DNA of 64,000 nucleotides from Nautilus pompilius (taxonomy: Eukaryota > Mollusca > Cephalopoda > Nautilida > Nautilidae): contig JACATO010000095.1 in assembly GCA_018389105.1 (NCBI GenBank), forward strand, positions 1 through 64,000, written 5' to 3'. A model generated the notes under the pieces. It ran no database searches, had not been told where the DNA came from, and saw only the letters and a list, made by a program, of their open reading frames with translations. Shown here in pieces: positions 1 to 43,116 of the stretch. Position 1 is the stretch's first letter; each line of letters begins with the position of its first letter. A program made the translations under genes and the position numbers.

Positions 1-404
1 TATTATTACTTCCGATTAGAAAAATGAAAATACCACTAATATTTAAAAAAAGGGCAGTTTCTATTAATATTGCTTAATATTTATCAAATAACAACATATA
101 CAATGGGACGACTCAAACCGTCGTATACAAAAATCAGTTGAGTCTTTATCATTCACTTCTAATTTAACAGGAAAACCATTGATTCGATAATTGGCATAAC
201 CAGAAGGTTAATAAGAGGTTCAATGGAATCCGATATACAACTAAAGTTGATAAGTATTGGTTTATAAGGTGGATAATCAAAGACGCCCGGAGCCGTTGAA
301 TTTAAGTTAAGAGATATAGGTTTCAATCATTAAATTGGATAAAAAATTGTTTCTTACCTAGTCCGTACCGCCATCATAATCCGCCGCCATATCCATACCC
401 CATC
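1..404 (-). repeat. Partial microexon superunit 8 at the window edge
   Basis: Only the GY-L end is present. A recognisable exon at about 358-404 keeps the GTAAGAA donor. Its acceptor AG is altered and it contains indels. The array clearly continues to the left of position 1. Confidence 0.6.
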
Positions 405-3400
405 CGTCAAATACAAATTTGCATTAAAAGATATGTTGACAGGAAAAAACGATATGTTATAAGTTAACATTGGAATTCACGATCATCATAAAATTATACA
501 CGGTGTTTTTGCCGCGAAAGTAAAACAAAGAAAGCTACTACTCAAAAGGTGTAGAAAGTAATGGAAAAGGAAGGCGACAATAGAAACTTGATAAAGTAAT
601 TTAGACAATATTGTGCCTCGTTTTCATTACATTAAATCTTCGGTATTGTGGTTGTGGTCTTATAAATAGGAAGTGTATCACGTGTTTCATAAATATCGAT
701 GAAGTTCTCATCAGGAGAAAAGGAATAGAATAAGCAGTTTTATTATTAATACAAGCAACGTAAAGATATGGATATTAATTGTCGTTATGTGTGTAAGAGT
801 CATTCAGAGTTTACGAGACGGATTATTACTTTTGAGTGCAAATGCTATTCCATAATCATGGATACAATTTAGTTCTGTGAGAGAATTACGTGGAATATTA
901 CGAAATAATTTTGCAATGCAATTATATCAGGTTAAGCTGATTAACTAATATTTTCATAATTTACAATTATAGACTTAATTAGCATCACAATTAAGGATCT
1001 AGAATTTCCATTTATCATCATCAGGTAATGCCGTTAGAAAAAAAATCTTTATGAACTCCATTAGTTAAATAGTTATTTTGTGAAGTTTTCAGATATGGGA
1101 TTTAAACTTTTGACAGCATATATAATAGGAGATATTCTAATTAATTCCGGATCATAAGTTTTTCTATCGGTTCCGCAACCGCCAAGACCGCAACAACCTT
1201 ATCCCCGCAGCCTTTCCAAAATAAAATTTAACCGTAAAAATACTTTTATATACCAGGAAAGAAGGTGACGGATTTTATCCTGGCCGAGGGACGATCTTAT
1301 TCACGATTCAAAATATGTAAAATAGATTAATTTTTATGATAACAGAAAACAATCACCCGAGCAGAAGTTAACATAAGACAAACATGAATGCATGAAATCT
1401 GTCCAAATTATTTCAGCAGAATTATCGGATTTTTTCTATTTATCACTCTATCTTAAGTTTAATGTGTGTGTTTTGTGAGAGAGAAAGGAATACTCAAATA
1501 CCAATATCTGTAGTACGAACTAAAGGTCAGCTATATCAATATAGCCATGTTAAACATGAATACTTACTGATCTTCTCGTAAAATCAGGGTGTGGTTTATA
1601 CTAGTATACTATTATTACTTCCGATTAGAAAAAATGAAAATACCACTAATATTCAAAAAAGGGGCAGTTCTATTAATATTGCTTAATATTTATCAAATAA
1701 CAACATATACAATGATGACGACTCAAAACCGTTGTATTAGAAAATTAGTTGAGACTTTATCATTCTAATCTACCACCAAACAATTATTAATCGTTCGTGG
1801 ATGGGCTTCGCCAGTTGATTAATAAGAGTTAAAAGGAACGTGCACAACTACAGTCGATAAGTATTTCTTTATAAAGTTGAAAATCAATCCTCCTTGTGCC
1901 GTTGATTGAAGTTAGAGATATGATTCAATCATTTAATTCGGATAAATCTTTTTCTTACCTAGTCCGTAGCCTCCATATCCCGCCATTCCGCCATATCCGC
2001 CATAATCCGCCAATATATCCATTCCGCATCCTTTCAAAATACAAAATTTTTCGTTAAAAATTACGGTTATAGTAAACAAAGATATATTATAAGTTAACAT
2101 CTACAGAGTTTGAATTCACGATGAATATAAATTATACTTGTTCTTTTATGAGACAGTGAAAACAAAGAAATCTACTTCTCAAAAGGTATAGAAAATAATG
2201 GAAACCTTAGGCGATCATATGAACTACGTTAAAGTAATTTAGACAATATATTTGCCTCGTTTACTTTAACAATAAAACTTCGGTATTGTGTGCATGTTCA
2301 GGTAAATAGGAAGGGTATCACGTGTGTGATGTGTATCGATGAAGTTCTCATGAGTAGGAAACAATAGAACAAGCAGTTTTATTAATACAGCAACGTAAAG
2401 ATAAGGATATTATCGACGTTGTGTGTATAAAAGTCATTCTGATTTTTCGAGACAGATTATTATTAGTTTTCAATTACGAAAGCTATCCCATCATCATTGA
2501 TACAATTTATTGGATTTTTTTTTTTTACAACATATATAAAATGATGAAGTTTTAGTTACTCTTCCGGATCATAAGTTATCTTACCGGTTCCGGAACCGCC
2601 AAGACCGCAACAACCGTATCCGCAGCCTTTCCAAAATAAAATTTAACCGTAAAAAATACTTTTATACCAGGAGAGAAGGTGACGGATTTTATCCTCCTGG
2701 CCGAGGGACGATCTTATTCACGATTCAAAATATGTAATAGATTAATTTTTATGATAACAGAAAACAATCACCGAGCAGAAGTTAACATAAGACAAACATG
2801 AATGCATGAAATCTGTCCAAATTATTTCAGCAGAATTATCGGATTTTTCTATTTATCACTCTATCTTAGTTTAATGTGTGTGTTTGTGAGAGAGAAAGGA
2901 ATACTCAAATACCAATATCTGTAGTACGAACTAAAGGTCAGCTATATCAATATAGCCATGTTAAACATGAATACTTACTGATCTTCTTCGTAAAATCAGG
3001 TGTGATTGTATACTATTATTACTTCCGATTAGAAAAAATGAAAATACCACTAATATTCAAAAAAGGGGCAGTTCTATTAATATTGCTTAATATTTTATCA
3101 AATAACAACATATACAATGATGACGACTCAAAACCGTCGTATTACAAAAATCAGTTGAGTCTTTATCATTCAACTTCTAATTTACATTTACAAAACCATT
3201 GATTCGATAATTGGCATAACCAGAAGGTTAATAAGAGTTCAATGGAATCCTATACAACTAAAGTTGATAAGTATTGGTTTATAAGGTTGATAATCAATAC
3301 TCCTTGATCCGTTGATTTAAGTTAAGAGATATATGTTTCATCATCATTAAATTTGGATAAAATTGTTCTTACCTAGTCCGTAACCGCCATCATATCCGCC

Positions 3401-6400
3401 ATATCCATACCCCATCCTACTTTCAAATACAAATTTGACATATAAAAGATATGTTTACAGGAATTCAATCACCGATATGTGTCCTTTGCCGCGAAAGTAA
3501 AACAAAGAAATCTACTACTCAAAAGGTGTAGAAAGTAATGGAAAAGGAAGGCGACCATAGAAACTTCGATAAAGTAATTTAGACAATATTTGTGCCTCGT
3601 TTTCATTACATTAAATCTTCGGTATTGTGTTCATGTGCTTGTAAATAGGAAGTGTATCACGTGTTTCATAAATATCGATGAAGTTCTCATCAGGAGAAAA
3701 GGAATAGAATAAGCAGTTTTATTAATACAGCAACGTAAAGATAAGGATATTAATTGTCGTTATGTGTGTAAGAGTCATTCAGAGTTTTCGAGAAGGATTA
3801 TTACTTTTTGAGTGCGAATGCTATTCCATAATCATGGATACAATTTAGTTCTGTGAGAGAATTACGGAGAATTTACGAAATAATATTTGCAATGCAATTA
3901 TATCAGGTTAAGCTGATTAACTAATATTTTCATAATTTACAATTATAGACTTAATTAGCATCACAATTAAGGATCTAGAATTTCCATTTATCATCAGGTT
4001 AATGCCGTTAGAAAAATAAATCTTTATGAACTCCATTAGGTAAATAGTTTTTTTGTGAAGTTTTCAGATATGGATTTAAACTTTGACAGCATATATAATA
4101 GGATGATATTCTAATTAATTCCGGATCATAAGTTTTCTTACCGGTTCCGGAACCGCCAAGACCGCAACAACCGTATCCGCAGCCTTTCCAAAATAAAATT
4201 TAACCGTAAAAATACTTTTATACCAGGAAAGAAGGTGACGGATTTTATCCTGGCCGAGGGACGATCTTATTCACGATTAAAATATGTAATAGATTAATTT
4301 TTATGATAACAGAAAACAATCACCGAGCAGAAGTTAACATAAGACAAACATGAATGCATGAAATCTGTCCAAATTATTTCAGCAGAATTATCGGATTTTT
4401 CTATTTATCACTCTATCTTAAGTTTAATGTGTGTGTTTGTGAGAGAGAAAGGAATACTCAAATACCAATATCTGTAGTACGAACTAAAGGTCAGCTATAT
4501 CAATATAGCCATGTTAAACATGAATACTTACTGACCTTCTTCGTAAAATCAGCGTGTGGTTGTATACTATTATTACTTCCGATTAGAAAAAATGAAAAAC
4601 CACTAATATTCAAAAAAGGGCAGTTCTATTAATATTGCTTAATATTTATCAAATAACAACATATACAATGATGACGACTCAAAACCGTTGTATTAGAAAA
4701 TTAGTTGAGACTTTATCATTCTAATTTACAACAAAACAATATTTTCGTGGATGGGCTTCGCCAGTTGATTAATAAGAGTTAAAAGGAACGTGCACAACTA
4801 CAGTCGATAAGTATTTCTTATAAAGTTGAAAATCAATCCTCCTTGTGCCGTTGATTGAAGTTAGAGATATATGTCAATCATTTAATTCGGATGAAATCTT
4901 TTCTTACCTGTCCGTAGCCGCCATATCCGCCATATCCGCCATATCCGATCCGCCATAGCCATATCCGCATCCTTTCAAAATACAAAATTTTTCGTTAAAA
5001 ATTACGGTTATAGTAAAACAAAGATATATTATAAGTAACATCTACAGAGTTTGAATTCACGATGAATATAAAATTATACATTGTTCTTTTATGAGACAGA
5101 GAAAACAAAGAAATCTACTTCTCAAAAGGTATAGAAAATAATGGAAACCTTAGGCGATCATATGAACTACGTTAAAGTAATTTAGACAATATATTTGGCT
5201 CGTTTACTTTAACAATAAAACTTCGGTATTGTGTGCGTGTTCAGGTAAATACGAAGGGTATCACGTGTGTGATGTGTATCGATGAAGTTCTCATGAGTAG
5301 GAAACAATAGAACAAGCAGTTTTATTAATACAGCAACGTAAAGATAAGGATATTAATCGACGTTGTGTGTATAAAAGTCATTCTGATTTTTCGAGACAGA
5401 TTATTATTAGTTTTCAATTACGAAAGCTATGCCATCATCATTGATACAATTTATTGGATTTCTTATTTTTACAACATATAAAATGATGAAGTTTAGTTAC
5501 TGTTACTTCGGATCATAAGTTATCTTACCGGTTCCGGAACCGCCAAGACCGCAACAACCGTATCTGCAGCCTTTCCAAAATAAAATTTAACCGTAAAAAA
5601 TACTTTTATACCAGGAGAGAAGGTGACGGATTTTATCCTGGCCGAGGGACGATCTTATTCACGATTCAAAATATGTAATAGATTAATTTTTATGATAACA
5701 GAAAACAATCACCGAGCAGAAGTTAACATAAGACAAACATGAATGCATGAAATCTGTCCAAATTATTTCAGCAGAATTATCGGGATTTTTCTATTTATCA
5801 CTCTATCTAAGTTTAATGTGTGTGTTTGTGAGAGAGAAAGGAATACTCAAATACCAATATCTGTAGTACGAACTAAAGGTCAGCTATATCAATATAGCCA
5901 TGTTAAACATGAATACTTACTGATCTTCTTCGTAAAATCAGGTGTGTGATTGTATACTATTATTACTTCCGATTAGAAAAAAATGAAATACCACTAATAT
6001 TCAAAAAGGGGCAGTTCTATTAATATTGCTTAATATTTATCAAATAACAACATATACAATGATGACGACTCAAAACCGTCGTATTACAAAAATCAGTTGA
6101 GTCTTATCATTCAACTTCTAATTTACAGGAAAACATTGATTCGATAATTGGCATAACCAGAAGGTAATAAGAGTTCAATGGAATCCTATACAACTAAAGT
6201 TGATAAGTATTGGTTTATAAGGTTGATAATCAATACTCCTTGATCCGTTGATTTAAGTTAAGAGATATATGTTTCAATCATTAAATTTGGATAAAAATTG
6301 TTCTTACCTAGTCCGTAACCGCATCATATCCGCCATATCCATCACCATCCTTTCAAATACAAAATTGGCATTAAATTACAGTTATAAGTTGTTTACAGAT

Positions 6401-9400
6401 GATCAAATGGAAAATTAAAAAATTGTTTAAAGGAAATCAACGATATGTTAAAGTTAACATGGAATTCACGATCATCATAAATTATACACGTGTCGCCGCG
6501 AAGTAAAAACAACAAATCTACTACTCAAAAGGTGTAGAAAGTAATGGAAAAGGAAGGCGACCATAGAAACTTCGATACAGTAATTTAGACAATATTTGTG
6601 TTTCGTTTTCATTAGCATTAAATCTTCGGTATTGTGTTCGTGTTCTTTAAATAGGAAGGTGTATCACGTGTTTCATAAATATCGATGAAGTTCTCATCAG
6701 GAGAAAAGGAATAGAATAAGCAGTTTTATTAATACAGCAACGTAAAGATAAGGATATTAATTGTCGTTATGTGTGTAAGAGTCATTCAGAGTTTACGAGA
6801 CGGATTATTACTTTTTGACTGCAATGCTATTCCATAATCATGGATACAATTTACTTCTGTGAGAGAATTACGTGGAATATTACGAAATAATATTTGCAAT
6901 GCAATTATATCAGGTTAATCTGATTAACTAATATTTTCATAATTTACAATTATAGACTTAATTAGCATCACAATTAAGGATCTAGAATTTCCATTTATCA
7001 TCAGGTTAATGCCGTTAGAAAAATAAATCTTTATGAACTCCATTAGGTAAATAGTTATTTTGTGAAGTTTTCAGATATGGGATTTAAACTTTTGACAGCA
7101 TATATAATAGGATGATATTCTAATTAATTCCGGATCATAAGTTTTCTTACCGGTTCCGGAACCGCCAAGACCGCAACAACCGTATCCGCAGCCTTTCCAA
7201 AATAAAATTTAACCGTAAAAAATACTTTTATACCAGGAAAGAAGGTGACGGATTTTATCCTGGCCGAGGGACGATCTTATTCACGATTTAAAATATGTAA
7301 TAGATTAATTTTTATGATAACAGAAAACAATCACCGAGCAGAAGTTAACATAAGACAAACATGAATGCATGAAATCTGTCCAAATTATTTCAGCAGAATT
7401 ATCGGATTTTTCTATTTATCACTCTATCTTAAGTTTAATGTGTGTGTTTGTGAGAGAGAAAGGAATACTCAAATACCAATATCTGTAGTACGAACTAAAG
7501 GTCAGCTATATCAATATAGCCATGTTAAACATGAATACTTACTGACCTTCTTCGTAAAATCAGCGTGTGGTTGTATACTATTATTACTTCCGATTAGAAA
7601 AAATGATAATACCACTAATATTCAAAAAAGGGGCAGTTCTATTAATATTGCCTAATATTTATCAAATAACAACATATACAATGATGACGGCTCAAAACCG
7701 TCGTATTAGAAAATTAGTTGAGACTTTATCATTCTAATTTACAACAAAACAATTATTTCGTGGATGGCTTCGCCAGTTGATTAATAAGAGTTAAAAGGAA
7801 CGTGCACAACTACAGTCGATAAGTATTTCTTTATAAAGTTGAAAATCAATCCTCCTTGTGCCGTTGATTGAACTTAGAGATATGATTCAATCATTTAATT
7901 CGGATAAAATCTTTTCTTACCTGGTCCCGTAGCCGCCATATCCGCCATATCCGCATCCTTTCAAAATACAAAATTTTTCGTTAAAAATTACGGTTATAGT
8001 AAAAACAAAGATATATTATAAGTTAACATCTACAGAGTTTGAATTCACGATGAATATAAAATTACATTGTTCTTTTATGAGACAGAGAAAACAAAGAAAT
8101 CTACTTCTCAAAAGGTATAGAAAATAATGGAAACCTTAGGCGATCATATGAACACTACGTTAAAGTAATTTAGACAATATTTTTGCCTCGTTTACTTTAA
8201 CAATAAAACTTCGGTATTGTGTGCATGTTCTTGTAAATAGGAAGGTATCACGTGTGTGATGTGTATCGATGAAGTTCTCATGAGTAGGAAACAATAGAAC
8301 AAGCAGTTTTATTAATACAGCAACGTAAAGATAAGGATATTAATCGACGTTGTGTGTATAAAAGTCATTCTGATTTTTCGAGACAGATTATTATTAGTTT
8401 TACTTACAAAGCATCCCATCATCATTGATACAATTTATTGGATTTGTTATTTTTACAACATATATAAAATGATGAAGTTTAGTTAGTTACTTCCGGATCA
8501 TAAGTTATCTTACCGGTTCCGGAACCGCCAAGACCGCAACAACCGTATCCGCAGCCTTTCCAAAATAAAATTTAACCGTAAAAAATACTTTTATACCAGG
8601 AGAGAAGGTGACGGATTTTATCCTGGCCGAGGGACGATCTTATTCACGATTCAAAATATGTAATAGATTAATTTTTATGATAACAGAAAACAATCACCGA
8701 GCAGAAGTTAACATAAGACAAACATGAATGCATGAAATCTGTCCAAATTATTTCAGCAGAATTATCGGATTTTTCTATTTATCACTCTATCTTAAGTTTA
8801 ATGTGTGTGTTTGTGAGAGAGAAAGGAATACTCAAATACCAATATCTGTAGTACGAACTAAAGGTCAGCTATATCAATATAGCCATGTTAAACATGAATA
8901 CTTACTGATCTTCTTCGTAAAATCAGGGTGTGATTGTATACTATTATTACTTCCGATTAGAAAAAATGAAAATACCACTAATATTCAAAAAAGGGGCAGT
9001 TCTATTAATATTGCTTAATATTTATCAAATAACAACATATACAATGATGACGACTCAAAACCGTCGTATTACAAAAATCAGTTGAGTCTTTATCATTCAA
9101 CTTCTAATTTACAGGAAAACCATTGATTCGATAATTGGCATAACCAGAAGGTTAATAAGAGTTCAATGGAATCCTATACAACTAAAGTTGATAAGTATTG
9201 GTTTATAAGGTTGATAATCAATACTCCTTGATCCGTTGATTTAAGTTAAGAGATATATGTTTCAATCATTAAATTTGGATAAAAATTGTTCTTACCTAGT
9301 CCGTAACCGCCATCATATCCGCCATATCCATACCCCATCCTTTCAAATACAAAATTTGCATTAAAATATGTTTACAGGAAATCAACGATATGTTATATGT

Positions 9401-12400
9401 TAACATTGGAATTCACGATCATCATAAAATTATACACGGTGTCTTTGCCGCGAAAGTAAAACAAAGAAATCTACTACTCAAAAGGTGTAGAAAGTAATGG
9501 AAAAGGAAGGCGACCATAGAAACTTCGATACAGTAATTTAGACAATATTTGTGTTTCGTTTTCATTAGCATTAAATCTTCGGTATTGTGTTCGTGTTCTT
9601 TTAAATAGGAAGTGTATCACGTGTTTCATAAATATCGATGAAGTTCTCATCAGGAGAAAAGGAATAGAATAAGCAGTTTTATTAATACAGCAACGTAAAG
9701 ATATGGATATTATTGTCGTTATGTGTGTAAGAGTCATTCAGAGTTTACGAGACGGATTATTACTTTTTGACTGCAAATGCTATTCCATAATCATGGATAC
9801 AATTTACTTCTGTGAGAGAATTACGTGGAATATTACGAAATAATATTTGCAATGCAATTATATCAGGTTAATCTGATTAACTAATATTTTCATAATTTAC
9901 AATTATAGACTTAATTAGCATCACAATTAAGGATCTAGAATTTCCATTTATCATCAGGTTAATGCCGTTAGAAAAATAAATCTTTATGAACTCCATTAGG
10001 TAAATAGTTATTTTGTGAAGTTTTCAGATATGGGATTTAAACTTTTGACAGCATATATAATAGGATGATATTCTAATTAATTCCGGATCATAAGTTTTCT
10101 TACCGGTTCCGGAACCGCCAAGACCGCAACAACCGTATCCGCAGCCTTTCCAAAATAAAATTTAACCGTAAAAATACTTTTATACCAGGAAAGAAGGTGA
10201 CGGATTTTATCCTGGCCGAGGGACGATCTTATTCACGATTTAAAATATGTAATAGATTAATTTTTATGATAACAGAAAACAATCACCGAGCAGAAGTTAA
10301 CATAAGACAAACATGAATGCATGAAATCTGTCCAAATTATTTCAGCAGAATTATCGGATTTTTCTATTTATCACTCTATCTTAAGTTTAATGTGTGTGTT
10401 TGTGAGAGAGAAAGAAATACTCAAATACCAATATCTGTAGTCCGAACTAAAGGTCAGCTATATCAATATAGCCATGTTAAACATGAATACTTACTGACCT
10501 TCTTCGTAAAATCAGCGTGTGGTTGTATACTATTATTACTTCCCGATTAGAAAAAATGATAATACCACTAATATTCAAAAAAGGGGCAGTTCTATTAATA
10601 TTGCCTAATATTTATCAAATAACAACATATACAATGATGACGGCTCAAAACCGTCGTATTAGAAAATTAGTTGAGACTTTATCATTCTAATTTACAACAA
10701 AACAATTATTTCGTGGATGGCTTCGCCAGTTGATTAATAAGAGTTAAAAGGAACGTGCACAACTACAGTCGATAAGTATTTCTTTATAAAGTTGAAAATC
10801 AATCCTCCTTGTGCCGTTGATTGAACTTAGAGATATGATTCAATCATTTAATTCGGATAAATCTTTTCTTACCTGGTCCGTAGCCGCCATATATCCGCCC
10901 ATATCCGCATCCTTTCAAAATACAAAATTTTTCGTTAAAAATTACGGTTATAGTAAAAACAAAGATATATATAAGTTAACATCTACAGAGTTTGAATTCA
11001 CGATGAATATAAATTATACATAGTTCTTTTATGAGACAGAGAAAACAAAGAAATCTACTTCTCAAAAGTATAGAAAATAATGGAAACCTTAGGCGATCAT
11101 ATGAACTACGTTAAAGTAATTTAGACAATATTTTGCCTCGTTTACTTTAACAATAAAACTTCGGTATTGTGTGCATGTTCTTGTAAATAGGACAGGTATC
11201 ACGTGTGTGATGTGTATCGATGAAGTTCTCATGAGTAGGAAACAATAGAACAAGCAGTTTTATTAATACAGCAACGTAAAGATAAGGATATTAATCGACG
11301 TTGTGTGTATAAAAGTCATTCTGATTTTTCGAGACAGATTATTATTAGTTTTCAATTACGAAAGCTATCCCATCATCATTGATACAATTTATTGGATTTG
11401 TTATTTTTACAACATATATAAAATGATGAAGTTTTAGTTACTTCCGGATCATAAGTTATCTTACCGGTTCCGGAACCGCCAAGACCGCAACAACCGTATC
11501 TGCAGCCTTTCCAAAATAAAATTTAACCGTAAAAAATTTTTATACCAGGAGAGAAGGTGACGGATTTTATCCTGGCCGAGGGACGATCTTATTCACGATT
11601 CAAAATATGTAATAGATTAATTTTTATGATAACAGAAAACAATCACCGAGCAGAAGTTAACATAAGACAAACATGAATGCATGAAATCTGTCCAAATTAT
11701 TTCAGCAGAATTATCGGATTTTTCTATTTATCACTCTATCTTAAGTTTAATGTGTGTGTTTGTGAGAGAGAAAGGAATACTCAAATACCAATATCTGTAG
11801 TACGAACTAAAGGTCAGCTATATCAATATAGCCATGTTAAACATGAATACTTACTGATCTTCTTCGTAAAATCAGGGTGTGATTGTATACTATTATTACT
11901 TCTTCCGATTAGAAAAAATGAAAAACCACTAATATTCAAAAAAGGGGCAGTTCTATTAATATTGCTTAATATTTATCAAATAACAACATATACAATGATG
12001 ACGACTCAAAACCTTCGTATTACAAAAATCAGTTGAGTCTTTATCATTCAACTTCTAATTTACAGGAAAACCATTGATTCGATAATTGGCATAACCAGAA
12101 GGTTAATAAGAGTTCAATGGAATCCTATACAACTAAAGTTGATAAGTATTGGTTTATAAGGTTGATAATCAATACTCCTTGATCCGTTGATTTAAGTTAA
12201 GAGATATATGTTTCAATCATTAAATTTGGATAAAAATTGTTCTTACCTAGTCCGTAACCGCCATCATATCCGCCATATCCATATCCCCATCCTTTCAAAT
12301 ACAAAATTTGCATTAAAAGATATGTTTACAGGAAATCAACGATATGTTATATGTTAACATTGGAATTCACGATCATCATAAAATTATACACGGTGTCTTT

Positions 12401-15400
12401 GCCGCGAAAGTAAAACAAAGAAATCTACTACTCAAAAGGTGTAGAAAGTAATGGAAAAGGAAGGCGACCATAGAAACTTCGATACAGTAATTTAGACAAT
12501 ATTTGTGTTTCGTTTTCATTAGCATTAAATCTTCGGTATTGTGTTCGTGTTCTTTTAAATAGGAAGTGTATCACGTGTTTCATAAATATCGATGAAGTTC
12601 TCATCAGGAGAAAAGGAATAGAATAAGCAGTTTTATTAATACAGCAACGTAAAGATATGGATATTTTGTCGTTATGTGTGTAAGAGTCATTCAGAGTTTA
12701 CGAGACGGATTATTACTTTTTGACTGCAAATGCTATTCCATAATCATGGATACAATTTACTTCTGTGAGAGAATTACGTGGAATATTACGAAATAATATT
12801 TGCAATGCAATTATATCAGGTTAATCTGATTAACTAATATTTTCATAATTTACAATTATAGACTTAATTAGCATCACAAATAAGGATCTAGAATTTCCAT
12901 TTATCATCAGGTTAATGCCGTTAGAAAAATAAATCTTTATGAACTCCATTAGGTAAATAGTTATTTTGTGAAGTTTTCAGATATGGGATTTAAACTTTTG
13001 ACAGCATATATAATAGGATGATATTCTAATTAATTCCGGATCATAAGTTTTCTTACCGGTTCCGGAACCGCCAAGACCGCAACAACCGTATCCGCAGCCT
13101 TTCCAAAATAAAATTTAACCGTAAAAAATACTTTTATACCAGGAAAGAAGGTGACGGATTTTATCCTGGCCGAGGGACGATCTTATTCACGATTTAAAAA
13201 ATGTAATAGATTAATTTTTATGATAACAGAAAACAATCACCGAGCAGAAGTTAACATAAGACAAACATGAATGCATGAAATCTGTCCAAATTATTTCAGC
13301 AGAATTATCGGATTTTTCTATTTATCACTCTATCTTAAGTTTAATGTGCGTGTTTGTGAGAGAGAAAGAAATACTCAAATACCAATATCTGTAGTCCGAA
13401 CTAAAGGTCAGCTATATCAATATAGCCATGTTAAACATGAATACTTACTGACCTTCTTCGTAAAATCAGCGTGTGGTTGTATACTATTATTACTTCCGAT
13501 TAGAAAAAATGATAATACCACTAATATTCAAAAAAGGGGCAGTTCTATTAATATTGCCTAATATTTATCAAATAACAACATATACATGATGGGCTCAAAA
13601 CCGTCGTATTAAAAATTAGTTGAGACTTATCATCTATTCTATTACTTTACAACAAACATATATTCGTGGATGGCTTCGCCAGTTGGATTAATAAGAGTTA
13701 AAAGGAACGTGCACAACTACAGTCGATAAGTATTTCTTTATAAAGTTGAAAATCAATCCTCCTTGTGCGTTGATTGAACTAGATGATATGATCTAAATTC
13801 AATTTAATTCGGATTATTAATCTTATCTTTTCTCCTGTCGTAGCCGCCATCCATATCCGCCATATATCCGCATCCTTTCAAAATACAAATTTTTCGTTAA
13901 AAATTACGGTTATAGTAAAACAAGATATACTATATAAGTTAACATCTACAGAGTTTGAATTCACGATGAATATAAAATTATACATTGTTCTTTTATGAGA
14001 CAGAGAAAACAAAGAAATCTACTTCTCAAAAGGTATAGAAAATAATGGAAACCTTAGGCGATCATATGAACTACGTTAAAGTAATTTAGACAATATATTT
14101 GCCTCGTTTACTTTAACAATAAAACTTCGGTATTTGTGCATGTTCTTGTAAATAGGACAGGTATCACGTGTGTGATGTGTATCGATGAAGTTCTCATGAG
14201 TAGGAAACAATAGAACAAGCAGTTTTATTATACAGCAACGTAAAGATAAGGATATTAATCGACGTTGTGTGTATAAAAGTCATTCTGATTTTTCGAGACA
14301 GATTATTATTAGTTTTCAATTACGAAAGCTATCCCATCATCATTGATACAATTTATTGGATTTGTTATTTTTACAACATATATAAAATGATGAAGTTTTA
14401 GTTACTTCCGGATCATAAGTTATCTTACCGGTTCCGGAACCGCCAAGACCGCAACAACCGTATCCGCAGCCTTTCCAAAATAAAATTTAACCGTAAAAAA
14501 TACTTTTATACCAGGAGAGAAGGTGACGGATTTTATCCTGGCCGAGGGACGATCTTATTCACGATTCAAAATATGTAATAGATTAATTTTTATGATAACA
14601 GAAAACAATCACCGAGCAGAAGTTAACATAAGACAAACATGAATGCATGAAATCTGTCCAAATTATTTCAGCAGAATTATCGGATTTTTCTATTTATCAC
14701 TCTATCTTAAGTTTAATGTGTGTGTTGTGAGAGAGAAAGGAATACTCAAATACCAATATCTGTAGTACGAACTAAAGGTCAGCTATATCAATATAGCCAT
14801 GTTAAACATGAATACTACTGATCTTCTTCGTAAAATCAGGGGTGTGATGTGTATACTATTATTACTTCCGATTAGAAAAAATGAAAATACCACTAATATT
14901 CAAAAAAGGGGCAGTTCTATTAATATTGCTTAATATTTATCAAATAACAACATATACAATGATGACGACTCAAAACCGTCGTATTACAAAAATCAGTTGA
15001 GTCTTTATCATTCAACTTCTAATTTACAGGAAAACCATTGATTCGATAATTGGCATAACCAGAAGGTTAATAAGAGTTCAATGGAATCCTATACAACTAA
15101 AGTTGATAAGTATTGGTTTATAAGGTTGATAATCAATACTCCTTGATCCGTTGATTTAAGTTAAGAGATATATGTTTCAATCATTAAATTTGGATAAAAA
15201 TTGTTCTTACCTAGTCCGTAACCGCCATCATATCCGCCATATCCATATCCCCATCCTTTCAAATACAAAATTTGCATTAAAAGATATGTTTACAGGAAAT
15301 CAACGATATGTTATATGTTAACATTGGAATTCACGATCATCATAAAATTATACACGGTGTCTTTGCCGCGAAAGTAAAACAAAGAAATCTACTACTCAAA

Positions 15401-18400
15401 AGGTGTAGAAAGTAATGGAAAAGGAAGGCGACCATAGAAACTTCGATACAGTAATTTAGACAATATTTGTGTTTCGTTTTCATTAGCATTAAATCTTCGG
15501 TATTGTGTTCGTGTTCTTTTAAATAGGAAGTGTATCACGTGTTTCATAAATATCGATGAAGTTCTCATCAGGAGAAAAGGAATAGAATAAGCAGTTTTAT
15601 TAATACAGCAACGTAAAGATATGGATATTATTTGTCGTTATGTGTGTAAGAGTCATTCAGAGTTTACGAGACGGATTATTACTTTTTGACTGCAATGCTA
15701 TTATTCCATAATCATGGATACAATTTACTTCTGTGAGAGAATTACGTGGAATATTACGAAATAATATTTGCAATGCAATTATATCAGGTTAATCTGATTA
15801 ACTAATATTTTCATAATTTACAATTATAGACTTAATTAGCATCACAATTAAGGATCTAGAATTCCATTTCATCAGGTTAATGCCGTTAGAAAAATAAATC
15901 TTTATGAACTCCATTAGGTAAATAGTTATTTTGTGAAGTTTTCAGATATGGGATTTAAACTTTTGACAGCATATATAATAGGATGATATTCTAATTAATT
16001 CCGGATCATAAGTTTTCTTACCGGTTCCGGAACCGCCAAGACCGCAACAACCGTATCCGCAGCCTTTCCAAAATAAAATTTAACCGTCAAAAAATACTTT
16101 TATACCAGGAAAGAAGGTGACGGATTTTATCCTGGCCGAGGGACGATCTTATTCACGATTTAAAATATGTAATAGATTAATTTTTATGATAACAGAAAAC
16201 AATCACCGAGCAGAAGTTAACATAAGACAAACATGAATGCATGAAATCTGTCCAAATTATTTCAGCAGAATTATCGGATTTTTCTATTTATCACTCTATC
16301 TTAAGTTTAATGTGCGTGTTTGTGAGAGAGAAAGAAATACTCAAATACCAATATCTGTAGTCCGAACTAAAGGTCAGCTATATCAATATAGCCATGTTAA
16401 ACATGAATACTTACTGACCTTCTTCGTAAAATCAGCGTGTGGTTGTATACTATTATTACTTCCGATTAGAAAAAATGATAATACCACTAATATTCAAAAA
16501 AGGGGCAGTTCTATTAATATTGCCTAATATTTATCAAATAACAACATATACAATGATGACGGCTCAAAACCGTCGTATTAGAAAATTAGTTGAGACTTTA
16601 TCATTCTAATTTACAACAAAACAATTATTTCGTGGATGGGCTTCGCCAGTTGATTAATAAGAGTTAAAAGGAACGTGCACAACTACAGTCGATAAGTATT
16701 TCTTTATAAAGTTGAAAATCAATCCTCCTTGTGCCGTTGATTGAACTTAGAGATATGATTCAATCATTTAATTCGGATAAAATCTTTTCTTACCTGGTCC
16801 GTAGCCGCCATATCCGCCATATCCGCATCCTTTCAAAATACAAAATTTTTCGTTAAAAATTACGGTTATAGTAAAAACAAAGATATATTATAAGTTAACA
16901 TCTACAGAGTTTGAATTCACGATGAATATAAAATTATACATTGTTCTTTTATGAGACAGAGAAAACAAAGAAATCTACTTCTCAAAACGTATAGAAAATA
17001 ATGGAAACCTTAGGCGATCATATGAACTACGTTAAAGTAATTTAGACAATATATTTGCCTCGTTTTCTTTAACAATAAAACTTCGGTATTTTGTGCATGT
17101 TCTTGTAAATAGGACAGGTATCACGTGTGTGATGTGTATCGATGAAGTTCTCATGAGTAGGAAACAATAGAACAAGCAGTTTTTTTATTACGTACAGCAA
17201 CGTAAAGATAAGGATATTTTCGTTGTGTGTATAAAAGTCATTCTGATTTTTCGAGACAGATTATTATTAGTTTTCAATTACGAAAGCTATCCCATCATCA
17301 TTGATACAATTTATTGGATTTGTTATTTTTACAACATATATAAAATGATGAAGTTTTAGTTACTTCCGGATCATAAGTTATCTTACCGGTTCCGGAACCG
17401 CCAAGACCGCAACAACCGTATCTGCAGCCTTTCCAAAATAAAATTTAACCGTAAAAAATACTTTTATACCAGGAGAGAAGGTGACGGATTTTATCCTGGC
17501 CGAGGGACGATCTTATTCACGATTCAAAATATGTAATAGATTAATTTTTATGATAACAGAAAACAATCACCGAGCAGAAGTTAACATAAGACAAACATGA
17601 ATGCATGAAATCTGTCCAAATTATTTCAGCAGAATTATCGGATTTTTCTATTTATCACTCTATCTTAAGTTTAATGTGCGTGTTTGTGAGAGAGAAAGAA
17701 ATACTCAAATACCAATATCTGTAGTACGAACTAAAGGTCAGCTATATCAATATAGCCATGTTAAACATGAATACTTACTGACCTTCTTCGTAAAATCAGG
17801 GTGTGATTGTATACTATTATTACTTCCGATTAGAAAAAATGAAAATACCACTAATATTCAAAAAAGGGGCAGTTCTATTAATATTGCTTAATATTTATCA
17901 AATAACAACATATACAATGATGACGACTCAAAACCGTCGTATTACAAAAATCAGTTGAGTCTTTATCATTCAACTTCTAATTTACAGGAAAACCATTGAT
18001 TCGATAATTGGCATAACCAGAAGGTTAATAAGAGTTCAATGGAATCCTATACAACTAAAGTTGATAAGTATTGGTTTATAAGGTTGATAATCAATACTCC
18101 TTGATCCGTTGATTTAAGTTAAGAGATATATGTTTCAATCATTAAATTTGGATAAAAATTGTTCTTACCTAGTCCGTAACCGCCATCATATCCGCCATAT
18201 CCATATCCCCATCCTTTCAAATACAAAATTTGCATTAAAAGATATGTTTACAGGAAATCAACGATATGTGTCTTTGCCGCGAAAGTAAAACAAAGAAATC
18301 TACTACTCAAAAGGTGTAGAAAGTAATGGAAAAGGAAGGCGACCATAGAAACTTCGATAAAGTAATTTAGACAATATTTGTGTCTCGTTTTCATTAGCAT

Positions 18401-21400
18401 TAAATCTTCGGTATTGTGTTCATGTGCTTGTAAATAGGAAGTGTATCACGTGTTTCATAAATATCGACGAAGTTCTCATCAGGAGGAAAGGAATAGAATA
18501 AGCAGTTTTATTAATACAGCAACGTAAAGATAAGGATATTAATTGTCGTTATGTGTGTAAGAGTTATTCAGAGTTTTCGAGAAGGATTATTACTTTTTTA
18601 TTGCGAATGCTATTCCATAATCATGGATACAATTTACTTCTGTGAGAGAATTACGTGGAGTTTTACGATATAAAATTTGCAATGCAATTATATCAGGTTA
18701 AGCTGATTAACTAATATTTTCATAATTTACAATTATAGACTTAATTAGCATCACAATTAAGGATCTAGAATTTCCATTTATCATCAGGTTAATGCCGTTA
18801 GAAAAATAAATCTTTATGAACTCCATTAGGTAAATAGTTATTTTGTGAAGTTTTCAGATATGTGATTTAAACTTTTGACAGCATATATAATAGGATGATA
18901 TTCTAATTAATTCCGGATCATAAGTTATCTTACCGGTTCCGGAACCGCCGAGACCGCAACAACCGTATCCGCAGCCTTTCCAAAATAAAATTTAACCGTA
19001 AAAAATACTTTTATACCAGGAAAGAAGGTGACGGATTTTATCCTGGCCGAGGGACGATCTTATTCACGATTTAAAATATGTAATAGATTAATTTTTATGA
19101 TAACAGAAAACAATCACCGAGCAGAAGTTAACATAAGACAAACGTGAATGCATGAAATCTGTCTAAATTATTTCAGCAGAATTATCGGATTTTTCTATTT
19201 ATCACTCTATCTTAAGTTTAATGTGTGTGTTTGTGAGAGAGAAAGAAATACTCAAATACCAATATCTGTAGTATGAACTAAAGGTCAGCTATATCAATAT
19301 AGCCAGGTTAAACATGAATACTTACTGACCTTCTTCGTAAAATCAGGGTGTGATTGTATACTATTATTACTTCCGATTAGAAAAATGAAAATACCACTAA
19401 TATTCAAAAAGGGGCAGTTCTATTAATATTGCTTTATATTTATCAAATAACAACATATACAATGATGACGACTCAAAACCGTCGTATTACAAAAATCAGT
19501 TGAGTCTTATCATTCAACTTCTAATTTACAGGAAAACCATTGATTCGATAATTGGCATCGCCAGTTGTTAATAAGAGTTCAAAGGAATCGTATACAACTA
19601 CAGTTGATAAGTATTTGCTTTATAAGGTTGAAAATCAACTCCTTGATCCGTTGATTTAAGTTAAGAGATATATGTTTCAATCATTTAATTCGGATAAAAT
19701 CTTTTCTTACCTGGTCCGTAGCCTCCATATCCGCCATATCCGCCATATCCATATCCGCATCCTTTCAAAATACAAAATATTTTGTTAAAAGTTACGGTTA
19801 TAGTAAAACAAAGATATATTATAAGTTAACATCTACAGAGTTTGAATTCACGATGAATATAAAATTATACTTAGTTCTTTTATGAGACAGTGGAAACAAA
19901 GAAATCTACTTCTCAAAAGGTATAGAAAATAATGCAAACCTTAGGCGATCATATGAACTACGTTAAAGTAATTTAGACAATATTTTTGCCTCGTTTTCTT
20001 TAACAATAAAACTTCGGTATTTTGTGCATGTTCTTGTAAATAGGACAGGTATCACGTGTGTGATGTGTATCGATGAAGTTCTCATGAGTAGGAAACAATA
20101 GAACAAGCAGTTTTATTAATACAGCAACGTAAAGATAAGGATATTAATCGACGTTGTGTGTATAAAAGTCATTCTGATTTTTTTCGAGACAGATTATTAT
20201 TAGTTTTCAATTACGAAAGCTATCCCATCATCATTGATACAATTTATTGGATTTGTTATTTTTACAACATATATAAAATGATGAAGCTTTAGTTACTTAC
20301 TTCCGGATCATAAGTTTTCTTACCGGTTCCGCAACCGCCAAGACCGCAACAACCGTATCTGCAGCCTTTCCAAAATAAAATTTAACCGTAAAAATACTTT
20401 TATACCAGGAAAGAAGGTGACGGATTTATCCTGGCCGAGGGACGATCTTATTCACGATTCAAAATATGTAATAGATTAATTTTTATGATAACAGAAAAAC
20501 ATCACCGAGCAGAAGTTAACATAAGACAAACATAAATGCGTGAAATCTGTCCAAATTATTTCAGCAGAATTATCGGTATCGGATTTTCTATTTATCACTC
20601 TATCTTAAGTTTAATGTGTGTGTTTGTGAGAGAGAAAGGAATACTCAAATACCAATATCTGTAATCCGAACTAAAGGTCAGCTATATCAATATAGCCATG
20701 TTAAACATGAATACTTACTGATCTTCTTCGTAAAATCAGGGTGTGATTGTATACTATTATTACTTCCGATTAGAAAAAATGATAATACCACTAATATTCA
20801 AACAAAAGTTAAATCTATTAATATTGCTTTATATTTATCAAATAACAACATATACAATGATGACGACTCAAAACCGTCGTATTACAAAAATCAGTTGAGT
20901 CTTTATTATTCAACTTCTAATTTACAGGAAAACCATTGATTCGATAATTGCCATAACCAGAAGGTTATTATACGTTCAAAGGAATCCTATACAACTACAG
21001 TTGATAAGTATTGGTTTATAAGGTTGATAATCAATACTCCTTGATCCGTTGATTTAAGTTAAGAGATATATGTTTCAATCATTAAATTCGGATAAAAAGT
21101 GTTCTTACCTAGTCCGTAGCCTCCATATCCGCCATATCCATATATGCCTCCTTTCAAATACAAAATTTGCATTAAAATATATGTTTACAGGAAATCAATG
21201 ATATGTTATAAGTTAACATTGGAATTCACGATCATCATAAAATTATACACGGTGTCTTTGCCGCGAAAGTAAAACAAAGAAATCTACTACTCAAAAGGTG
21301 TAGAAAGTAATGGAAAAGGAAGGCGACAATAGAAACTTTGATAAAGTAATTTAAACAATATTTGTGTTTCGTTTTCATTAGCATTAAATCTTCGGTATTG

Positions 21401-33750: not shown

Positions 33751-36390
33751 CTAATGATAGCAGGATCTGTAGCAGCAAGGGTAACAACAGTAACCAGGGT
33801 AACAGCCATAGCCGTGACCGTAGCCTCCATAACCACCATAGCCTCCATATCCACCATAGCCTCCATATCCACCATAGCCACCTCCATAGCCACCTCCGTA
33901 GCCACCTCCATAGCCACCTCCGTAGCCACCATAGTATGGGTAGTAATAACAAGGCCTTTTCCAGCTTGCGTAACAGTAATGCTTCTTGCCGCTGTCGTAA
34001 TGAGAGTGGTAATGGCGTCGATGCTTGATCAAAGTCTGGTGGCAGACGTCTGTCCGTCCATGGCAGCGACGGTACCCAGCGTGGTGTGCAGCGCCTCCTT
34101 TACGGCAGTGGACCGCCGCGTGGCATCCTAAAATACAAAAAAAAAAAAATATGGGTAAACAGTGGTCACGAATTAAAATTAATACTTAAAGCAGAACAAT
34201 TTTTTTTAATTTAAAAAATCCGAAACAAACCGCTTCTTACTTTGAATAAGATGTTTCTTATTTGTTGTTGTTGTTTTGTTTTTTTTTACAAACAGCCTAC
34301 TGATTTCGGGTGAGCATTTCCCGACAATTACGTCAGCGAACTTTATGACAATTAATGGCTATAGATTCCTGTTAAGCTTCTGAAGACATTACGAGACGTT
34401 ACTGGGAATAAATTTTAAAAAAATAAGGAAACAGTTTCGGGGAAACGTTTTAAACAAGTTAGAAAATAGCTTATCAATACGTACGTTTGCAGATCTCATG
34501 GCTGTTGGCTTCTGCCTCTATGGAAAACAGACAAATACATAGATATATGTGAGTGCGCGTGTTTCTGTCAAAGTTTCCTCAAATACTGTTATTCACAAAC
34601 TACAGCGGTCCGTATAATACATTTGTATGCAGACGGAAGGCAGCCTTTTAAAAAGGTTATTTAAAGCCAAAATCTCTATGGCGGAATATTTGTAGCAAAC
34701 CATCTAGAAATGTTGTTGTAAACCAGATATTTTACATTCATTTCTCTAACCCGACCGCTGGACAGAAAATGCAGCCTTAAAATGTTTTTCTAGTTAAATA
34801 TCTTGGTTCTTCAATTAAAAAAAGAAAAAAATGTAAAGCTTAATATGTTTTGAGGGGCTGTGATGATTTAATAGTGATAACCCGAGCTTTTTTATTGAGT
34901 TAAGATTCTAAATTTTTACGAACGCGATGACAGTTTTTTTCTGGTAAAATCTCCAGCGTGGAGAATCTTCCTTAAGGATACTTCGAAAAGTCAATTAATA
35001 AACAAAATTAATTATATCTGTTGATATAATAACCTTCTGCGTAAGCGAGATTTCAGAAAAAAACGCTTTAGAAAGTTTGGGGGGGTAGTATTGTCCAGGA
35101 AACTTAGATTCACTTTCCTTCTTGTAAAATGTGTAAAGGTCGCGAAGGGCTAGAACTCTAAACCCCTTTGCAAAATCTTACCTGCTGCAGCAGGTTCTTC
35201 TACTGCATTGGCTCCTTCGGCTGGAAAAGATATAAAAACTTCATTTTAGCTGTTCTTGCAACAGAAAATCGTACAGATGTCACGTATGTTTCCTCATACA
35301 CGAATTCTCTCTCTCTCTCTCTCTCTGCTGTATTAAAGAGCGCATACAGCAGCTATTTAAGTCCTTGGAAAACCAATTCGTAGCTAAAGCGTTTAATTTT
35401 CATCTTTAGAGCGCACGGTCTTTCATTATTAGTTTTCCTTTGCTTTGAAAGATGTTTGCTGTGTTCTCCGATTCTGCGGTATCCCTCTGTCTGGTGACAG
35501 TTTTAAAGCTGACGCGCTATTACCTTCATTTTACGGCACTTTCTCAGTCAGTCAGGAAAAGTTACACCTCTGCACTCGTAGAACGACAACACTGAGTTGA
35601 TAATGAGAAGGAAAAAAAGGGGGGCTAACTATTACGAGTAATGAGAATTTCATTTTCAAATCATTGCTGAATATTTTAAAACTACGTAGTTGCAAAAAGA
35701 TAGAAGTGAAACACATTTACCTTCGCTTTCTCCTGAAGTGACAGAAAGGAAGAGAAGGGATGAGAACAGAGTGATGAGGATAATCTTGTTCCTAAAAAAA
35801 AAAACAGAAATAGAAATGTTTTGAAGCACACATTTACTTCAGCTAAATATCTTTTTTTTTTTAAGAAAAAAAAACGTTAGAAATTCTACTACAACGTAAA
35901 TAATCTGATCTAAGCAAGAAAAAAAAATTATAATTTACCAGACTTTTTCTTTTCTCACGATAAATTATTGGTACAAAGAAGATAACAGCGAGTTTCAGCC
36001 CAGCCAAATAAAGTAAATTGAACGGTTAAACATTCCGCTTTTTTAAAAAAAAAAGGACCTACTCGCGTAAAGTGAGGATTTTAGATGTATATACGTATTA
36101 TTTCGGAAGTTTCGTTCATAAACCAAATTCTAGGTGACGAACAACTCGCTGATTATCCGCAGTTGCGGCTGATAAACGATGTCTAGCTCTACTTCGGACA
36201 GCAAACGGTCGGCGGCGTCCTGTTTTAATTCCGGACTTACGGTTGTTGTCCAAGTTATAGCTGTCACAGTTTCGAAACTTTCCTGGGAAAACTTAAACAA
36301 AAAAACTAAAAAGTTGGCCTAAGACAACAAACTGCTGAAGTCTACAAAGAAACCGTCCGGCTTAACGAACTAGTTGGGGCGTACTCACAT
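33751..36390 (-). CDS. Secreted Gly-Tyr-rich protein with His/Cys region, complete four-exon gene
   Basis: Exons: 1, ending at 36389 (only AT of the start codon is coding); 2, 35721-35791 (71 nt); 3, 35182-35220 (39 nt); 4, 33751-34127 (377 nt, stop TAG). The coding sum is 489 nt, giving 162 residues. Introns are GT-AG (donors GTGAGTAC, GTAAAT, GTAAG; acceptors with strong pyrimidine tracts). Residues 1-19 or so form a signal peptide starting MNKIILITLFSSLLFLSV. Residues 20-37 are Glu/Ala-rich (propeptide-like, but with no RxKR site). From residue 39 comes a region rich in Cys, His and Arg (CHAAVHC; CHGRTDVCH; HRRHYHSHY), then a YYYPYY motif, about ten GGY/GGGY units, and a Cys-Tyr tail (CYPGYCCYPCCYRSCYH). 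It shares leader, start-codon split, exon lengths and phases with the giant gene, so the two are paralogues. A structural extracellular role with Tyr or Cys cross-linking is inference. Confidence 0.88.
34128..35181 (-). other. Intron 3 of the 162-residue gene
   Basis: This ~1.05-kb intron has donor GTAAG at 35181 and acceptor TTTTAG at 34128-34129, with a long T-tract before the acceptor. Nothing else is seen. Confidence 0.6.
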
Positions 36391-37973: not shown

Positions 37974-39541
37974 CAGTGCCTGACAAAAGAGATGGTACAC
38001 TTGCTGTGAAATTGATATTTGAGCTCCTTCGTTTCAACAAACGCATTTAAATACCAACCACATTGTTTATTATATGCACAAAACATGCCCTCACAATGTA
38101 TAAAAGCAACGCGTGCTATATGTTTACATATTCTCTGGAAAAAATATTTGAATCGACAATGTCCGATTTGTACCGCAACAAAAGAGTTGGGACTGTGAGC
38201 AAAACCATAAATATTTTTCAACATTCCAAATTACAATCGAACAAATGCATGGAAATGATCAATTGACTAGTAGTGGTTGGCGTATCTGTCATTTTCGATC
38301 ACTTCTCGACAACGACGGGGCATGGATTCGACCAAACGAAGGCAGTCTGAATTGGCCATTTCCTGACAGTTTTTTCTCAATGGCCTGCCAGAATTGGTCT
38401 TGGTTGAGATTCTTGTGTTTGGCCATCTTGGCCTTCAGCTGCTTCCAGGTATTTTCGATTGGGTTGAGATCCGGACTTTGGGGCGGCCAGCGCATGACAT
38501 CCATTCATAGTTGGTTGGTGATGGAAGTGACGACTCTGGCGGTGGGGATCGGGGCAATGTCGTGCTGGAAGATGGCGGTGACTTGCTCTGTCCCTGATCA
38601 ACTTGAAAGGGCCTGGTCCCGCCGCGCTCACACACCCCAAGACCATCAATGATCCTCCTCCGGCCTGTACCGTCGGTCGGATGCACTTTATATTGCATTT
38701 TTTGCCATGGTAATGTCGAACATATAGTAAACCAGCACTGTGAATGCGCATGATCATCATTTCGTCGGAAAAGAGAACTCTAGCCCATTGAACTTTGGTC
38801 CAGTTTTTGTGCACTTTAGCCCATGCTATGTGGATGCACCTGTTCTTGTTGCTGATCAATGGCTTTTTCTGGGTGATTCGTCCAAAGAGATTCTCCTCAC
38901 ATAGACGACGTTGAATAGTGCGACTGGAGACATTCACTCCACTCAGGGAGGCTTGAATGGCTGTCGATGTCAGGAAACGATTGGCCCTGGATTTGTGACA
39001 AATGAGTCGATCCATTTTGTTGTCACATTTTTGCGGTCTTCCGATTCGCATTTTTGGTTTCGTGTTTCCGGTTTCCTTGTACTGCTTCAGAATGCGGTTT
39101 ACAGTGCTTTTCGGGCAACTGACTTGATCGGCTATCTCTCGACACGACAGATTTTCTTGGTGGTGCTCAACTATCAAGTCTCTGATTTCAGACGATGTTG
39201 TCTTGCTAGACATGGTGCAAAAATGATCTTAGATGGTCTTAGATGATGTTATTCTATTCATTTGAACCTTTGAAAATGAATATATTGAGGGGAATAAATG
39301 TAAGCACAGATTTTGTTCACTGTCCCAACTCTTTTGTCGCAGCACAAATCTGACTATGCTAATTCAAATATTTTTTCCAGACAATAAATACACATATGAC
39401 ATTCATTGTTTTTACACATCGTAAAGGCATGTTTTATACAACTTATGGACAATACGATGGCTATTTGTATGCAAATGTAAAAACAAGAGAGCTCAAATAT
39501 CAATTTCCCAGCAAGTGTCCCAACTCTTTTGTCCGGCACTG
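37974..39541 (-). mobile_element. Tc1-like DNA transposon with long IR/DR terminal repeats
   Basis: The 1568-bp element is flanked by TA on both sides (37972-37973, 39542-39543). Termini start CAGTGCCTGACAAAAGAG (left) and CAGTGCCGGACAAAAGAG (right, reverse complement). The inverted repeats are about 220 bp. Each carries a second, inner copy of the ACAAAAGAGTTGGGAC motif (about 38178 on the left, 39323 on the right), the IR/DR layout known from Sleeping Beauty-type Tc1 elements. The transposase gene lies inside on the minus strand. The first ~60 bases of the two ends differ at only a few positions, so the insertion is fairly young. Confidence 0.92.
38289..39213 (-). pseudogene. Tc1-family transposase, frameshifted
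   Basis: The ATG is at 39213. The N-terminal paired-like helix-turn-helix is visible (CREIADQVSCPKSTVNRILK), followed by a GRP-type linker and the first catalytic Asp in LFSDEM. The frame shifts near 38600; the second Asp (QHDIAP, where most relatives have QHDNAP) and the final SPDLNPIEN are in another frame, with an in-frame TGA between them. Asp-to-Glu spacing is 34, the DD34E class. With a frameshift and a stop it cannot encode active transposase, though its ends could be mobilised in trans. Confidence 0.88.
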
Positions 39542-41969: not shown

Positions 41970-42318
41970 AATAGCTCATGATGGTAGGGACTTTCACAAA
42001 ACATCCGAGATAAAACGAAACTATTTATTAATACGGATTTTATTTGGTTTCTGCGGATGACCTGGTTTATTTCCCTTGTAAAAATTGCTCACGTAATAAC
42101 GAAAAAAATGCATTAAACATTAATTACTTTATAGTTTCAGTTTTATTTTCAGGTTACTTATATTTTTGCTTTTTTTAAAACTTTTTTATCACTCTGAAGG
42201 TTTTTATATCATCTTACGTTTAATTTATTCGCAGAAGCGTAATGTTCTGCTTCAACTCTTAGTAAGTAAGAAAGAACATTTGGAGTCTGTGCTTACAGGT
42301 GCTATGTTCTTGTTGTTT

Positions 42319-42545
42319 CTTTTGTACCAATAAGCATTACTACAAGGTATTTTTTGCCGTTTCGTTTGTACCAATAAGCATTACTACAAGGTATTTTTTG
42401 CCGTTTCGTTTGTACCTATAAGCATTACTACAAGGTATTTTCCAAGTTTTAGTGCCTTACAGGTGCTATGTTCTTGTTGTTTCTTTTGTACCTATAAGCA
42501 TTACTACAAGGTATTTTCCAAGTTTTAGTGCATTACAGGTGCTTT
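42319..42545 (+). repeat. 44-bp / 76-bp nested minisatellite
   Basis: Units beginning TTTGTACC start at 42321, 42365, 42409 and 42485. The first two intervals are 44 bp and end in TTTTTTGCCGTTTCG. The last is 76 bp, because it carries TTTTCCAAGTTTTAGTGC and TTACAGGTGCTATGTTC instead. The repeat core ATAAGCATTACTACAAGG is constant, so two overlapping tandem repeats share one core. Confidence 0.85.
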
Positions 42546-43062: not shown

Positions 43063-43116
43063 TATAAAACTCCAAGACTGGTGAAATGGCCGAAACTCAC
43101 TGGAGACGGACAAGAT
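43063..43116 (+). promoter_or_regulatory. Orphan promoter plus leader exon of the same design (possible third family member)
   Basis: TATAAAA at 43063-43069 is followed ~30 bases on by a start-site region (A at 43093-43099) and a leader ending ...GGACAAGAT directly before GTAAGTATT at 43117. This repeats the layout of the two minus-strand genes: a TATA box, a 20-45 nt leader, and a final AT that would begin a start codon. I found no matching signal-peptide exon downstream on this strand. The gene may be dead, may have a long first intron, or the match may be chance. Confidence 0.4.

Follow-up and report, generated by a model that had tools for sequence, protein, structure and literature searches.

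A predicted secreted Gly/Tyr/Cys-rich protein gene of Nautilus pompilius built from a higher-order array of symmetric microexons

The first 21 kb of the DNA analysed here, a window of 64,000 nucleotides from Nautilus pompilius (assembly GCA_018389105.1, contig JACATO010000095.1, positions 1 to 64,000), hold a long series of very short open stretches separated by near-identical spacers, which raises the question of whether they are the exons of one giant repeat-protein gene and, if so, how such a gene would grow. The window is the first part of a 3.39 Mb contig (hereafter C95) in an assembly of 728 Mb and 2558 contigs, and because it begins where the contig begins, the array is cut by the assembly. 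An earlier interpretation made from the letters alone (the sequence-only reading) had proposed a single minus-strand gene running off the left edge, with 15 Gly-Tyr (GY) and 14 B microexons in order. Our analysis bears out that count and strict alternation from position 21150 down to 358. We consider it probable that the array belongs to a real spliced gene on the minus strand, encoding a secreted, furin-type processed, cross-linkable structural protein of a matrix-, cement-, cuticle- or capsule-like kind.

Each repeat has 12-25 residues; the B module reads GCGYGCCGLGGSGT and has three Cys in its usual form. Thirteen of the 14 B copies in the window are 42 nt long, in frame and flanked by a GAAAG acceptor and a GTAAG donor, the exception being B14 (1211-1168), which has 44 nt and has lost its donor. 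Clean GY copies number six of 15 (GY1-5 and GY7), with lengths of 36, 42, 45 or 51 nt; GY8, GY13 and GY14 have lengths divisible by three and are shifted internally, and the acceptor of GY13 is ambiguous. The claim that intact copies measure 36-51 nt and are phase 1-1 therefore stands within the window; on two other contigs carrying the array, GY exons reach 75 nt. Over all copies of the window, GAAAG precedes all 14 B and 13 of 15 GY copies (not GY13 and GY15, as placed here), and GTAAG follows 13 of 14 B and 14 of 15 GY copies (not B14 and GY6). A plus-strand reading was rejected because microexon boundaries on that strand, which read CTTAC before and CTTTC after, offer no AG/GT, in keeping with the strand first proposed.

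Along the minus strand, the first ten microexons (GY1 to B5, 21150-14429) are all in frame with the exons upstream of them. They are followed by GY6 (13874-13835), which has no GT donor and lies in an error-rich patch whose adjoining intron has 27 private substitutions and 8 private indels. B6 to B14 with GY7 to GY14 then occupy 13098-1168, the B copies intact except B14 and the GY copies partly broken, and the contig start leaves GY15 (404-358) as the final copy. Intron length across the window (28 introns) follows a four-step cycle of about 740, 556, 730 and 765 nt (range 553-801), so a GY+B pair of 1.47 kb forms the basic unit and is itself paired into 2.95 kb. From B3 onward, odd-numbered B copies carry CRYG and CGYG in turn, a hint of a third level of 5.9 kb.

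A gene requires more than a repeat, and the sequence upstream of the array has the build of a gene front. A sequence scan placed a TATA box (TATAAATA) at 26049-26042 on the minus strand, ahead of a predicted transcription start and a leader exon (26020-25978, upstream end approximate) that ends in AAAGAT/GTAAGT and splits the start codon AT/G at its donor (25978). Four exons follow, just where the sequence-only reading had put them: a 68-nt signal-peptide exon (24080-24013, MKLLFALVAAVLLLSLALPSEET, entered in phase 2 and left in phase 1), a 39-nt propeptide exon (22325-22287, ALEKENSKESKVA), a 48-nt exon (22019-21972, RTRQKRCNCLSCRIRK) carrying a furin-like RQKR and then a Cys-rich start, and a 42-nt exon (21841-21800, GLARGNRKYYGYYP) at the array border. 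The last three are phase 1-1, and no stop interrupts the frame between the split start codon and the end of B5, a run of 14 coding exons. In a genome search with these 5' coding exons, three of the four (signal, 48-nt and 42-nt) matched, all on C95 only; the 39-nt propeptide exon was not matched on its own.

The predicted signal peptide rests on a hydrophobic leader (MKLLFALVAAVLLLSLALPS) found by hydrophobicity scan. When 104 kb were scanned for signal exons, this gene ranked first (3.2), a plus-strand stretch at 42153 second (2.9), and a neighbouring gene described below third (2.7), level with an unrelated minus-strand stretch at 87817 (2.7). The scan therefore favours the array gene without singling out its neighbour. 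The 104 kb contained five TATA boxes with a short leader ending AT/GTRAGT, whereas 30 Markov sequences averaged 1.43 (range 0-6), so this part of the gene front is, by itself, weak evidence.

The array was found again on two other contigs, and the sequence supports a minus-strand gene running past the left edge of the window. A genome search with the B exon, allowing up to three mismatches, gave at least 30 matches: at least 13 on C95, at least 10 on a 1.6 Mb contig (C300) and at least 7 on an 11,869-bp contig (C422). C422 is array along its whole length, and C300 carries array internally at about 282.3-298.7 kb. A pattern search yielded 32 GY and 32 B copies in total (15+14 on C95, 8+8 on C422 and 9+10 on C300). 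It missed one further B with an intact donor at C300:296332, making 33 B, and probably one GY near C300:285.2 kb, where a double-length gap contains TATGG motifs at 285194 and 285188. If the three contigs join into one gene, its modules would total about 66 if C422 is a separate stretch, or about 50 if C422 is a variant of some part that the count already includes. We rejected C422 as a plain allele of C300 given that long matches between them are 96.0-96.9% identical, compared with 96.9% for C300 against itself one unit on, although this is not proof.

Past the last B of C300 lie a donor-less GY relic at 282213 and, directly behind the array, a unique 45-nt phase 1-1 exon (C300:282002-281958, GSLLGSYGGPGSYGL) with an AAAG acceptor and a GTAAGA donor. 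As a control, 212.8 kb of flank (both strands counted) gave 55 open phase 1-1 candidate exons outside the array (length about 27-95 nt, pyrimidine tract, GTRAG donor); the only one with at least 40% Gly+Tyr was this exon. A likely terminal exon (GNAYGKRNLICWLLKILQHLLGCHCCYS and an in-frame stop; C300:276756-276671) lies 5 kb past it, with an AATAAA at 276618 read by eye, and is less certain than the GSLLGSYGGPGSYGL exon. Within the proposed last intron, at about C300:281.1-281.7 kb, there is a tandem repeat of about 115 bp.

C95 and C300 could instead hold two separate array genes, an arrangement compatible with the remainder of our explanation. It would account for the array lying inside a 1.6 Mb contig and passing, at 298.7 kb, into a GA-rich satellite and other sequence. 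Against this, the 5' exons matched C95 only, C95 starts in mid-array, and a unit at C300:297159 is 99.7% like a C95 unit. The C300 junction lies in a simple repeat in the middle of an intron, where a misjoin would be expected, and is probably an assembly misjoin. Two loci therefore seem unlikely to us.

We compared repeat units across contigs. Twelve unit intervals were found, one of which (4.36 kb, on C422) was excluded; identity among the other eleven 2.95 kb units ranges from 94.9 to 99.7%. Most diverged is the unit at the 5' edge, 94.9-96.3% identical to all others, and interior units reach 99.7% even between C95 and C300, a pattern that unequal crossing-over predicts. High similarity is also what a pure tandem repeat with chance open stretches and no gene would show, with repeat stretches mostly 92-99.7% alike (87% at the C422 start) in introns and exons alike. 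Such a satellite would not be expected to have unique phase-matching exons flanking it, of which that behind the array also matches in composition, nor a TATA box, a predicted signal peptide, a polyadenylation signal and a neighbour of the same architecture. We regard a satellite without a gene as very improbable.

Exon decay within the array provides a further view of the gene. The donor GT has become AT in six of 33 B copies: B14, C422:11402 and C300:292022, 289021, 286008 and 283008. Four of these six also carry a TAC to TAA change, in frame in three and, in B14, shifted out of frame by a preceding 2-nt insertion, as compared with none of the 27 donor-intact B copies. Confinement of TAA to donor-less copies is expected if exons, once skipped, can decay freely. 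We rejected a mere sequencing error in B14 because donor loss and TAA recur on C300.

Several observations weigh against a functional gene of this kind. As assembled, six of the 15 GY copies in the window are broken (GY6 has no GT donor, GY9, 10, 12 and 15 are frameshifted, and GY11 has stops), and across contigs ten of 32 are frame-broken or contain a stop and were excluded from the predicted protein. Among the copies kept, at least GY8, GY13, GY14, the GY at C422:3276 and the B at C422:1132 are garbled internally. Some breaks are common to several GY copies (9339, 3420 and 404; 7957 and C300:295776), and random error does not look like the cause of all of them. The TAA change is probably one event later spread by duplication. 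B exons had indels in three of 32 copies, relative to an intron-window mean of 5.4, but 27.5% of 345 windows were as low, giving no clear deficit. B exon substitutions were more numerous than in introns (29 versus a mean of 15.1 per intron window), with 22 of the 29 coming from three variants in 8, 4 and 10 copies, and pairwise comparisons within the window found B exons no less substituted than the preceding intron. Hence, the exon versus intron divergence test gave no sign of purifying selection. Finally, three protein searches with the predicted products of this gene and its neighbour, each scoring 8000 candidates, returned no convincing homologue.

These points would fit a decaying gene whose front is or was coding and whose array is now mainly satellite-like, with many GY exons dead: broken GY copies with partly shared breaks, six of 33 B copies without a donor and no excess constraint on exons. 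On the other side, 25 of 32 B and 22 of 32 GY copies are free of stops, divisible by three in length and still followed by a GT donor, a few of them garbled inside; the seven B copies left out comprise the six without a donor and one frameshifted. TAA occurs in donor-less and not in donor-intact copies, and neither the first ten modules nor the unique exons flanking the array show damage. We therefore think that a decaying gene is improbable. Part of the GY breakage looks like assembly error, as in the GY6 patch and near the starts of C422 and C95, where introns have 6-10 private indels each (30 introns compared). GY9 and GY10 adjoin introns with zero private indels, and inherited GY breaks are possible. 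The copies may be too young and homogenised for the constraint test to show selection.

A working spliced gene, the reading we prefer, would encode an unusual protein. Joining the 22 GY and 25 B modules kept gives 735 residues with 50.7% Gly, 16.5% Tyr and 12.1% Cys; the predicted mature form including both ends has 802 residues with 48.0% Gly, 16.1% Tyr, 12.0% Cys and 0.5% Lys. The furin-like site, the Cys-rich start, the Gly loops with Tyr and the B cysteines suggest, from composition, a secreted material set by disulfides and perhaps dityrosine. The sequence-only reading had looked to a search with joined modules for a known family, and none emerged. Each protein search scored only the 8000 candidates sharing the most words, with limited query lengths. 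A 209-aa array query matched three proteins at E ≤ 10, the best (2.2e-3) a Gly/Trp-rich protein, and a 639-aa query matched one at E ≤ 1 (0.19). The N-terminus with the first modules matched no Pfam family at E ≤ 1, a PDB search gave nothing at E ≤ 1, and Rfam gave nothing at gathering score.

How might such a gene grow? Under the mechanism we propose, every repeat of 12-25 residues would be its own symmetric microexon, GY alternating with B. Nearly identical introns provide long homology, and unequal crossing-over would therefore add or remove units of 1.47 or 2.95 kb, perhaps 5.9 kb, while slippage of GGATATGGC-like units would alter GY length within exons. Because the exons are phase 1-1, the frame would survive any copy number and any exon loss; a donor-less B would be skipped with the frame kept and then be free to decay. 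The proposal that the repeats grow by duplication of exon plus intron, and not by codon repeat alone, is supported by the sequence, with the qualification that GY length also varies by internal 9-bp units. We give an even chance to the fuller model of a metazoan structural-protein gene in which the repeat region contains no exons other than cassettes of 36-75 nt, arranged in a satellite-like higher-order array with levels of 9 bp, 1.47 kb, 2.95 kb and perhaps 5.9 kb. Such an array would evolve as alpha satellite does, with a homogenised centre and ageing edges; dead exons would be skipped in frame, and unequal crossing-over and donor-site decay would set the module number and GY:B ratio of a biomaterial.

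The neighbouring predicted gene lies upstream at 36462-33751, also on the minus strand. It has a TATA box at 36462, a leader ending AT/GTGAGT at 36389, a signal exon (35791-35721), two phase 1-1 exons of 39 nt (35220-35182) and 33 nt (34517-34485), and a last exon (34127-33751) with a Cys/His/Tyr-rich part, then a GGY repeat, ending in CCYRSCYH and a stop (CCYPCCYRSCYH). Its likeness to the array gene is in the front architecture (split ATG, signal exon and small phase 1-1 exons), and it is not repeated. This suggests, but does not prove, that secreted structural proteins are clustered here and that exon duplication enlarged one of them. In the genome it has one good match and two weak ones elsewhere (E 0.16 and 0.69). 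Its protein search gave 46 matches at E ≤ 10, the best 1.3e-3, and looks composition-driven (many DnaJ-domain proteins and one cuticle protein); a Pfam scan gave one sub-threshold keratin-head match.

Elsewhere in the window, a further TATA box with a short leader ending AAGAT/GTAAGT is located at 43063-43116 on the plus strand. The scan revealed no convincing signal exon of the same type downstream, and it is only possible that this marks a third gene of the same build. Another TATA box and leader, ending AT/GTGAGT at 49725-49672 on the minus strand, may be due to chance given the Markov mean of 1.43. An open frame at 38377-39228 on the minus strand resembles a Tc1/mariner transposase by eye, and at 42315-42543 tandem repeats of 44-bp and 76-bp period overlap. 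Outside the array, several open frames of at least 95 aa in the flanks also seem transposon-like by eye.

We asked which known systems the array gene resembles. Tropoelastin is a Gly-rich extracellular protein encoded by alternating small in-phase cassette exons, with Lys cross-linking exons alternating with hydrophobic ones. It is not known to have Cys/Tyr modules of the kind seen here, nor are its introns known to be homogenised. The array gene, in turn, has no comparable Lys-containing exons, Lys making up 0.5% of its predicted mature protein.

Schistosome micro-exon genes (MEGs) encode secreted proteins, have short exons mostly divisible by three and long introns, and are hard for automatic annotation (PMC10526429, PMC5825161). 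For Ag10.3/MEG-4.1 (SmMEG-4.1), PMC3723592 cites Davis 1988, whose title mentions tandemly repeated 81-base exons. The array gene likewise has short exons, mostly divisible by three, as most of its coding region and a predicted N-terminal signal peptide. The hydrophobic/aromatic motif and basic residue that these accounts place right after the MEG signal peptide were not seen by eye, SEETALEKENSKESKVARTRQKR standing there instead. It further differs in being Gly/Tyr/Cys-rich, with many more copies and a higher-order repeat. The layout recalls MEGs, as the sequence-only reading had put it.

Spider silk offers a second comparison. The MaSp2 and flagelliform spidroin genes of Argiope have near-identical repeated introns, of two alternating types in some MaSp2 (PMC9779670). 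The array gene shares with them a repeat protein predicted to be secreted and homogenised repeated introns of alternating types. Its introns, unlike those that the Argiope authors call small, are about 7-20 times exon length and follow a four-step cycle. The Pfam scan, which covered the N-terminus and first modules, revealed no spidroin N-terminal domain. In human LPA, the tandem unit of kringle IV type 2 (KIV-2) comprises two exons and two introns of different length in 1 to more than 40 copies (PMC4378929), but its exons of 160 and 182 bp are not symmetric singly and encode folded kringle domains. High glycine-tyrosine KRTAPs and lamprey KRTAP-like proteins are Gly/Tyr/Cys-rich structural proteins, the former with a single coding exon and the latter with two exons (PMC12101200); the array gene has dozens of exons and a predicted signal peptide. 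Overall, it appears to work like MEGs, Argiope silk genes and LPA kringle arrays, with membership of none shown.

Growth of repeat proteins by duplication of exon plus intron is already known from LPA KIV-2 (PMC4378929) and Argiope silk (PMC9779670). Among the papers listed by a literature search on repeated or homogenised introns and microexons, the terms for homogenised introns occurred in the Argiope paper alone, and its authors were not aware that two alternating types of homogenised intron occur in any other eukaryotic gene (PMC9779670). LPA KIV-2 is arguably a second such gene, and the array gene, whose exons are far smaller, would add an independent case. This mode of copying exon and intron together could easily be missed by standard annotation. 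The Nautilus gene would offer a direct test of splicing among dozens of near-identical exons of 36-75 nt. It would also let one ask whether repeat growth is driven by homogenised introns and how many genes of this sort escape annotation. Its product may be a new Gly/Tyr/Cys biomaterial.

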